Shown: positions 7,193 through 10,061 of the stretch, in pieces
Layout: each line of letters opens with the position of its first letter
Position numbering within the stretch: position 1 is the stretch's first letter
Source of the DNA: Pediococcus claussenii ATCC BAA-344
Lineage (GTDB): Bacteria; Bacillota; Bacilli; Lactobacillales; Lactobacillaceae
Reading direction: 5' to 3'
Assembly: GCF_000237995.1 (NCBI RefSeq)
Contig: NC_016605.1
Span: 1,054,001-1,118,000, forward strand
Length of the DNA: 64,000 nt
Translations under genes and position numbers: made by a program
Notes under the pieces: generated by a model
Database searches by the model: none
Seen by the model: the letters and a program-made list of their open reading frames with translations, nothing else
Told to the model about the DNA's origin: nothing

Positions 7193-7807
7193 TTATAATT
7201 CCCCCAACATTTCTTGATATTCTGGATAAACACGTGTCACACGCAGATGTTCACCCTTTATAATATTCTTAATTTCATCAACTGCAACAACCAAGTCATC
7301 ATTAACAACAGCATAATCATAATCACGCATTGTCTTGATTTCATCTACTGCCTTACCCATTCGTTTATCAATGGTTGCCATATCCTCAGTTCCACGATTA
7401 ATAATTCGTTGCTTTAATTCTACCAAATCTGGTGGCGTTAGGAAAATAAAAACTCCATCTGGCATTTTTTCTCTGACTTGTCTAGCGCCGTTAACTTCGA
7501 TTTCCAAAAACACATCTTTACCAGAATCTAAAGTCTGATTCACATACTGTAGCGGTGTCCCGTAGTAATTATCAACGTATTTTGCGTACTCTAACATTTG
7601 TCCATGCGCTATTTTATCTTCAAAGTCACTTTTTGATACGAAGAAATAATCTTCACCATTAACCTCGCCATTTCTTGGTTGTCTGGTTGTCATTGAAATC
7701 GAATATTGAAAGTCATTATCCTTTTGTTCAAAAATTGCTTTTCGTACGGTTCCTTTTCCTACTCCAGACGGTCCAGACAACACTATTAACATTCCACGCT
7801 TCGCCAT
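7193..7807 (-). CDS. gmk: Guanylate kinase
   Basis: Phosphorylates GMP to GDP. The P-loop is [11 protein letters not shown] at residues 9-19. The GMP-binding region [19 protein letters not shown] follows, and [12 protein letters not shown] is the Walker B-like strand. It is 204 aa, as expected. It opens the gmk-rpoZ-coaBC-priA block and diverges from the SOS-box gene at 7954. Confidence 0.96.
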
Positions 7808-7890: not shown

Positions 7891-7919
7891 TTGCATTGTC
7901 GAACTAATGTTCGTATAAT
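7891..7919 (+). promoter_or_regulatory. SigA promoter with embedded SOS (LexA/DinR) box
   Basis: The -35 TTGCAT (7891-7896) and -10 TATAAT (7914-7919) are separated by 17 bp. The spacer holds CGAAC-TAAT-GTTCG (7900-7913), a perfect 5-4-5 palindrome matching the Firmicute SOS operator (GAAC-N4-GTTC core). Its position between the two promoter elements is where a LexA repressor would block RNA polymerase. Confidence 0.85.
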
Positions 7920-7953
7920 AGAAAATGCAAACAAACGTTCGGAGGATATAAAA

Positions 7954-8289
7954 ATGCAAAATATTCAAGGCATCCCTTTTAAAAGAATCTCAACATCTCT
8001 AGCTAAAATTCACGATTCCTACGAAAAACTCTTTAACGTTCCAGAAGATCGTGAACAAATTCTAGCAGATCGTCCAATGCCAGAGTACCAAATTTTAGAT
8101 GTGATTTCTTATTCCATTACTAACCACCTTCCTGTAAAAATACAATTAAATATTCGACAAAACATTCTTGAAGCTACAGGTTATCTTCATCAAAACAATT
8201 CAGGATCTCTGCGTTTAGTCAACCCTAATTCAGGACTAACCCACATGCTAAATATCGATACTATTCGTAGTATTAATAATTTGAATTGA
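7954..8289 (+). CDS. YolD-like small protein under SOS control
   Basis: A 111-residue cytoplasmic protein, start chosen at 7954 because GGAGGATAT lies just upstream. The longer open frame from 7891 runs through the promoter and SOS box, so it is rejected. The sequence contains LADRPMPEYQILDVISY, then a beta-rich half (LPVKIQLNIRQNILEATGYL ... HMLNIDTIRSI), resembling the YolD-like family, a predicted Sm-like fold often encoded next to Y-family polymerases of the UvrX/UmuC type. No polymerase gene is adjacent here: gmk is upstream and recN is convergent. The SOS box implies induction by DNA damage. Family assignment is from pattern only. Confidence 0.7.
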   Translation: MQNIQGIPFKRISTSLAKIHDSYEKLFNVPEDREQILADRPMPEYQILDVISYSITNHLPVKIQLNIRQNILEATGYLHQNNSGSLRLVNPNSGLTHMLNIDTIRSINNLN

Positions 8290-8341: not shown

Positions 8342-8373
8342 TAAAAAGGATTGAATTCATAATATTCAATCCT
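8342..8373 (-). terminator. Terminator behind recN
   Basis: GGATTGAAT pairs with ATTCAATCC across a short loop. On the minus strand it is followed by TTTTTAAATT, so it fits the end of the recN transcript. It lies between convergent genes and may act weakly on the plus strand. Confidence 0.6.
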
Positions 8374-8387
8374 CACTGTGTGATTTT

Positions 8388-10061
8388 TCAAGAATGTTCA
8401 ATTGTTAGCAACTCGCGAGCATGAGCAACACTTAGTTTTGTGATCTCATTACCTGCTAGCATTCTAGCTATTTCTTGTACTCGTCCCTCATCATTTAATA
8501 CCGTTAAAGTGGTTGTCGTCCGATCATTTTTGACTTCTTTTGCAACATGCAGTTGCTGATCTGCTTTTGCAGCAACCTGCGGTAAGTGTGTAATACACAA
8601 GACTTGCGAATGATTTGCAATTTCGTGTATTTTATCTGCAATTGCCTGAGCAACCCTTCCACTTACACCCGTGTCAACCTCATCAAAAATAATACTTGTC
8701 ACACCATCATTTTGGGCAAAGATCGTTTTTAAGGCCAACATGATCCTTGATAATTCACCACCAGATGCAATTTTTACTAAAGGCCGTAGTTGTTCCCCTG
8801 GATTAGGCTGAATAAAAAATTCAACATCGTCTAGGCCACTCAACTCTGGACTCTTTCTTTCAGTAAATTGAACTTTAAAAATTGTATTATTCATATAAAG
8901 TTCGTTTAATTGTTCCTGCACTCTTTTTTCTAAGCTAAGAGCACTTTTTTTCCTGATTTTTGATAGCCTAATTCCCAATTTTTGCGTTTTTGCTTCTAAT
9001 TCTTCAACTTGTTGACTAAGTTCATTGGCGCTGTCGCCCGTTCCAATCATTGAGTCTAGTTCCGTCTTGATTTTTTCAAAATATTCCAGTACTTCGTTTA
9101 TAGAGTCTCCATACTTTCGCTTCAATTGGTGAATTAACTCTAATCTTTGTTCTACCTGGTCTAGTTCACCATTATTCCATTCAAGTCCATCGATTGCATC
9201 GCGCACAGAACTCGCAACATCCTCTAGAGAATAATATGCGTTTGATGCTTCCTCAGCCATCTTTTGATATTCAGTGCCATATTCAGCAATACTTTCAAGA
9301 TCGTTCATAATGCCGCCAACTAAATCAGTAGCCGCCCCACCATCATCATTCTCAAGAGCCTGCATACTAGAGGAAAGTGCCGCAGATATTGCTTGAAAAT
9401 TATTTAATTGGTCTCGCTTGAGGATCAACTCTTCCTCCTCACCACTTTTTAGATTGGCAGTGCTAATTTCGTCAATTTGGAAACGTAACATGTCAACTCT
9501 CTGATTCCACTCTTGCTCATTAGCCAACTGCTTTTTTAAGCTTTGTTTTACCGTTTGAAGTCTTGAAAAAATTGTTTGATATTCTTTCAAGACAGTTTTT
9601 ATTTGTCCATCATCATATTGATCTAAGGTATCCAAGTGCTTCTCTCTATCCATTAGCTCTTGGTGCTCATTCTGACCATGAATATCAATTAAAGTATCGC
9701 CAATTAAACGTAAGCTCTGTAAATTAACAATAGTTCCATTTATTCTGCAAACATTTCGTCCATTGTTATGAATTTCCCGAGTAATAATTAATTCATCATC
9801 AGGTTCAACTCCAACCTCATCCAAAGCTTTTTCCGTATTTTTAGATGTATTTGCATCAAAAACGCCCTGTAATACAGCTTTGGTTGCACCGGTTCGAATA
9901 AAGTCACTTGACCCGCGTCCGCCAGCCAATAACCCTACTGCATCGATTATAATTGATTTACCAGCTCCAGTTTCTCCGGTTAAGGCTGTCATTCCTTTGG
10001 AAAAATCGACATCTAATTTTTCTATTATCGCAAAATCTTTAATTGAAATTTCTCGTAACAT
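8388..10061 (-). CDS. recN: DNA repair protein RecN
   Basis: An SMC-like ATPase that acts early in double-strand break repair. The 557-aa protein starts with LREISIKDFAIIEKLDVDF and Walker A TGETGAGKSIIIDAV, has a central coiled coil (about residues 160-390), and ends with the signature LASGGELSRIMLALKT, Walker B SIIFDEVDTGVSG and the ITHLPQVAA H-loop. It closes the argR-side operon. No SOS box is visible directly upstream because argR is only 17 bases away. Confidence 0.96.
   Translation of the reverse strand: MLREISIKDFAIIEKLDVDFSKGMTALTGETGAGKSIIIDAVGLLAGGRGSSDFIRTGATKAVLQGVFDANTSKNTEKALDEVGVEPDDELIITREIHNNGRNVCRINGTIVNLQSLRLIGDTLIDIHGQNEHQELMDREKHLDTLDQYDDGQIKTVLKEYQTIFSRLQTVKQSLKKQLANEQEWNQRVDMLRFQIDEISTANLKSGEEEELILKRDQLNNFQAISAALSSSMQALENDDGGAATDLVGGIMNDLESIAEYGTEYQKMAEEASNAYYSLEDVASSVRDAIDGLEWNNGELDQVEQRLELIHQLKRKYGDSINEVLEYFEKIKTELDSMIGTGDSANELSQQVEELEAKTQKLGIRLSKIRKKSALSLEKRVQEQLNELYMNNTIFKVQFTERKSPELSGLDDVEFFIQPNPGEQLRPLVKIASGGELSRIMLALKTIFAQNDGVTSIIFDEVDTGVSGRVAQAIADKIHEIANHSQVLCITHLPQVAAKADQQLHVAKEVKNDRTTTTLTVLNDEGRVQEIARMLAGNEITKLSVAHARELLTIEHS

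Follow-up and report, generated by a model that had tools for sequence, protein, structure and literature searches.

YolD/YqjX (PF08863) is regarded as the putative small subunit of Gram-positive mutasomes of the UmuC type (YqjW/UvrX), and its co-occurrence with the YqjW/UvrX-type polymerase is reported as near-perfect (PMC6511836). Modelling places the N-terminal arm of YolD/YqjX inside the polymerase, and there are YqjX variants that consist of the arm only, or of the arm and another domain (PMC12926913). Models also put YqjX in a Pol V-like complex, but neither genetic work nor binding assays in Bacillus subtilis have borne this out (PMC13335488). A solitary yolD under LexA control has been described in Staphylococcus aureus (SACOL1986/SAOUHSC_02144) (PMC6511836, PMC11442139). 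In Lactobacillus plantarum WCFS1, lp_1611 lies beside the opu operon, has a LexA/DinR box and is 32.9-fold up under hydrogen peroxide; it was reported as unknown only, the authors' guess being a transcription regulator (PMC2174512).

The window analysed here, a stretch of 64,000 nucleotides from the Pediococcus claussenii ATCC BAA-344 genome, contains a solitary gene for a 111-amino-acid protein (7954..8289, + strand). This protein is named here an arm-less relative of the YolD barrel and not a canonical YolD, because the arm is missing, the gene stands alone, the family is confined to Lactobacillales in our sample, and 33 of 180 carrier genomes have no UmuC match. Since a solitary, LexA-controlled yolD is known in S. 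aureus, SOS control of a stand-alone gene of this type has a precedent. What is new is that the arm is missing, that the gene is conserved across the order together with its paired operators, and that it persists in genomes without detected UmuC.

Promoter, operators and gene layout

The -35 element TTGCAT (7891..7896, +), of which TTGC occupies the same position in most homologous loci, and the conserved -10 element TATAAT (7914..7919, +) are separated by a spacer of 17 bp that encloses the first LexA box, CGAACTAATGTTCG (7900..7913, +), an exact palindromic match that is kept in homologues. All of these elements, and their spacing, were given in a preliminary description of the locus and are found in the sequence. 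A second box absent from that description, CAAACAAACGTTCG (7928..7941, +), begins 28 bp from the start of the first and is kept in 54 of 55 homologous loci; it overlaps the ribosome-binding site GGAGG (7941..7945, +) by one base. Position 7891 is also the TTG that opens a frame of 132 codons, the true start being the ATG at 7954.

The upstream neighbour is gmk (7193-7807, -), which is divergent, and the downstream neighbour, convergent as described before, is recN (8388-10061, -). A terminator-like hairpin in the convergent gap (8346..8374, -), recognised by pattern only, is probably that of recN. A non-coding ORF is ruled out by the conservation of the protein and of its start across genera, and a phage or plasmid gene was likewise rejected, with no tblastn match in the phage or plasmid collection and housekeeping genes on both sides.

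LexA control

Within the 64-kb window, CGAACNNNNGTTCG occurs as one exact and one 1-mismatch copy, and shuffled sequences give 0.66 copies (up to 1 mismatch), so a single box is weak evidence; the whole 1.98-Mb genome has only 3 exact copies. Conservation is more telling. Paired boxes are found in 28 of the 29 homologous loci from the first Lactobacillaceae protein search, and wider searches, which included other Lactobacillales families, added 26 loci, every one of them with the pair. The total is 54 of 55 homologous loci, all from other genomes and spread over several Lactobacillales families, and the spacing is nearly constant (between box starts, 26-29 bp in most loci and 32 bp in one). 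This two-box conservation across homologous loci rules out a chance box.

The same motif precedes recA (exact), lexA, uvrB and umuC in the P. claussenii genome. Counting the motif is no proof of a regulon: GAACNNNNGTTC occurs 20 times in the genome against 23 for the reversed control, i.e. without enrichment, and 25 against 46 times when 1 mismatch is allowed. The regulon claim therefore rests on the position of the motif before SOS genes and on its conservation. The locus has the features of a LexA regulon member, namely an operator of the CGAACNNNNGTTCG type that overlaps the promoter and is conserved in orthologues, in a genome that encodes lexA. Because the boxes recur in the homologous loci and the motif precedes known SOS genes, LexA control of the 111-residue gene is well supported, and sequence evidence could hardly make it more certain.

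Several other loci were noted in the course of the analysis. At loci L009 and L020, from one Pediococcus genome (G230) and a genome of the g20 group (G057), a stop codon interrupts the homologue, and the paired LexA boxes remain. A weak arm-less match (E 2e-8) in an f4/g43 genome (L134:1441-1761), for which 300 bases were examined without revealing a LexA box, may be either derived or unrelated. On a plasmid-sized contig (C6), an exact CGAACNNNNGTTCG palindrome (L162:1842-1855) is flanked by a long ORF on the minus strand and by a small gene pair resembling a toxin-antitoxin system of the MazEF type. Finally, a 1-mismatch LexA box, CAAACGTATGTTCG, stands directly upstream of a gene for an 81-residue protein (L159:1353-1598; C1 near 136,350-136,600, -), which is perhaps an OB-fold protein like a short SSB and a possible further solitary SOS gene.

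A YolD-type barrel without the arm

Searches of Pfam, NCBIfam and PHROGs (E up to 10) and of the sequences of solved structures gave no match to the 111-residue protein. The preliminary description had called it YolD-like and proposed comparison with the YolD-like profile; in that comparison neither the protein nor any of 28 family members (up to E 1) matches PF08863. Relatedness becomes visible when profile is compared with profile. HHalign gives a probability of 95.9% for the 28 arm-less sequences against 22 canonical YolD sequences, and 96.9% with a diverse set of 36 sequences, the aligned region being the final ~75 residues of the family. Some of the canonical rows had been found with the arm-less family's own model, and the comparison was therefore repeated with only those YolD rows that the Pfam model finds; the probabilities are then 88.4% and 94.0%. 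Column-shuffled control profiles never exceed 1.3%. The next-best whole-genome matches of the arm-less profile are UmuC-linked YolD proteins. In a tree of the barrels arm-less and canonical rows are largely separate, and a single clade is not rejected (p-AU 0.489), although 84 columns are too few for proof. Homology to the C-terminal barrel of UmuC-linked YolD is thus well supported by sequence profiles. The YolD-like label holds for the barrel (residues ~37-110), and does not extend to a Pfam match or to an N-terminal arm; for want of both, an ordinary YolD is ruled out.

The arm of canonical YolD reads Y-DRGMxKWxGFxLSEH. Its motif DRGMxKWxGF, by motif test only, is absent from the window protein and from all 75 arm-less ORFs, and present in 32 canonical ORFs; both numbers were counted over loci, with some genomes counted twice. 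The two groups of ORFs also differ in gene context. At the place of the arm, a short helix is predicted for the window protein (residues 9-26; 7978..8031, +), with a pLDDT of only about 60. It ends in [YF]xx followed by two hydrophobic residues, an ending that the predicted helix has in 24 of 36 sequences, compared with a mean of 7.4 and a maximum of 16 in shuffles; a contact to the clamp or to RecA was considered for this motif as a speculative role.

For the remainder AlphaFold predicts the kind of barrel that the preliminary description had proposed to look for, more precisely an Sm/WYL-like one (residues 43-110; 8080..8283, +) made up of five strands and a helix (44-57), with pLDDT about 90 over residues 41-110. 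The nearest solved folds to this model are the WYL domains of PafBC and DriD and the Hfq/Sm proteins, at Z about 7-8.7, which is near the tool's stated background, and at 8-20% sequence identity. An AlphaFold model of canonical YolD matches the same PDB barrels. There is no Pfam WYL match for the protein, and 111 residues leave no space for a helix-turn-helix domain.

Distribution and the UmuC partner

By protein search, a homologue is present in 68 of 397 Lactobacillaceae genomes. The homologues almost always adjoin gmk, followed by recN, the opu transporter, glnA or other genes; in other Lactobacillales families, genes for a V-type ATPase or for opu frequently lie alongside. A scan of 299 genomes from across the class gave no match above threshold to the arm-less profile outside Lactobacillales, and the streptococcal-type matches read in this sample are mostly canonical, umuC-linked YolD. 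The arm-less gene is solitary at every locus read, and none adjoins umuC.

In named Lactiplantibacillus species a member of the arm-less family, preceded by the same boxes, occupies the gmk-opu position. For this reason, i.e. the gene neighbourhood in congeneric species, lp_1611 is probably an orthologue of the 111-residue gene.

The preliminary description had the gene without a polymerase partner. This is true of the locus and not of the genome, where two arm-bearing yolD genes lie behind umuC, one on the chromosome (with a LexA box) and one on contig C9. Of the 251 genomes of Lactobacillaceae compared, the arm-less family is strongly matched in 180 (29 weak matches were left out of the counts) and UmuC is present in 200; the association between the two is not significant (p = 0.09). 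No UmuC match is found in 33 of the 180 carriers, by a single query with a cut-off of E <= 1e-60; some of these genomes are drafts, where plasmid copies may be missed. It is likely that the gene acts independently of UmuC.

In several Lactobacillaceae umuC operons an apparently conserved third small gene (about 111-130 aa) lies between umuC and yolD (L001:1080-1415; also L035, L036, L041, L046 and L091), and possibly encodes another mutasome component. An apparent in-frame TAA in the plasmid-type umuC of seven genomes (L166, L167-L172) proved to be merely a stop directly before the start codon.

Possible function

On balance, we favour a LexA-repressed, solitary SOS effector with a YolD-type barrel and a different helix for the arm, acting independently of UmuC. 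LexA on its two operators, one in the promoter spacer and the other between the -10 element and the ribosome-binding site, would repress the gene, and after DNA damage the cleavage of LexA would allow a small soluble protein to be made in a burst. The short N-terminal helix would take the place of the arm that is modelled as the contact to Y-family polymerases; because of this replacement the protein probably works apart from UmuC, and its barrel may engage another partner in the damage response. Our guess for that partner is a repair protein such as RecA in the first place and single-stranded nucleic acid in the second. The 32.9-fold rise of lp_1611 speaks for this reading, with the limit that the response was to peroxide and not from a defined LexA mutant. 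The preliminary description had suggested an independent damage-response regulator; independence fits the missing arm and the carriers without UmuC, and the regulatory role is putative. Extended to the whole order, the proposal would be an effector family of Lactobacillales that kept the YolD barrel, swapped the arm for a short helix, and passed from mutasome subunit to independent responder to DNA damage with a new partner, a tentative view that we hold to be slightly less probable than its contrary.

Alternatively, the protein might be a trans-acting small subunit, analogous to UmuD, of a translesion polymerase of the UmuC or DinB type that is encoded apart, as proposed for the S. aureus yolD. 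The barrel homology to UmuC-linked YolD, the LexA control shared with umuC in P. claussenii, and the separate LexA-controlled umuC and yolD loci of S. aureus would agree with this, but the arm modelled as the polymerase contact is missing, the umuC operons of such genomes already hold an arm-bearing yolD, and UmuC is not detected in 33 of the 180 carriers, which makes such a subunit unlikely. Somewhat less likely still is a nucleic-acid-binding protein of the Sm/Hfq kind that acts on RNA or ssDNA during SOS. The solved folds closest to it are indeed Hfq/Sm rings together with the WYL domains of PafBC and DriD, both damage regulators, but with Z scores (7-8.7) near background and identity of 8-20%, and a shared small barrel gives no proof of function.

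It is improbable that the protein is a competitor of canonical YolD, which would occupy the partner of the barrel without recruiting the polymerase and so limit SOS mutagenesis: the barrel is the same, the arm is lacking and the gene is co-regulated with umuC-yolD in P. claussenii through the same motif, but it is kept in genomes without detected UmuC, and the barrel has no known partner. An SOS inhibitor of cell division in place of YneA/SosA is more improbable again, for although the promoter is strong and dedicated and, unlike in B. subtilis, no YneA-like gene adjoins lexA (L161, C1:999500-1003500; lexA neighbourhood only), its sequence is not predicted to be related to that of any division inhibitor.

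A barrel-only family under tight LexA control offers a way to study the role of the barrel in isolation from the polymerase arm. For lactic acid bacteria, including food-used Pediococcus and Lactiplantibacillus, it also adds an SOS gene that is uncharacterised and, it appears, strongly induced.

Comparison with known systems

The WYL domains of PafBC and DriD resemble the 111-residue protein in predicted barrel fold (Z 8.1-8.7), but the latter has no helix-turn-helix and no detectable sequence relation to them; with the Sm/Hfq family the likeness is one of the single-chain predicted fold only. lp_1611 shares the neighbourhood (the opu operon) and the LexA/DinR box, and is likewise uncharacterised. 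The S. aureus yolD, known here by description only, is also stand-alone, LexA-controlled and YolD-related (PMC6511836, PMC11442139), but its authors assign it to YolD proper, and the class-wide scan with the arm-less profile matched nothing outside Lactobacillales. YolD/YqjX itself has in common with the arm-less family the C-terminal barrel of ~70 residues (by profile comparison), a helix with five strands, and LexA control. It differs in having the DRGMxKWxGF arm and the match to the Pfam model, whereas the arm-less gene is not beside umuC in the loci read and is kept in genomes without detected UmuC. The YqjX variants (PMC12926913) show, as does the arm-less family, that the arm and barrel of YolD are separable, but in the opposite direction: in those variants the arm stays and the barrel is lost or exchanged, whereas the arm-less family loses the arm and keeps the barrel.
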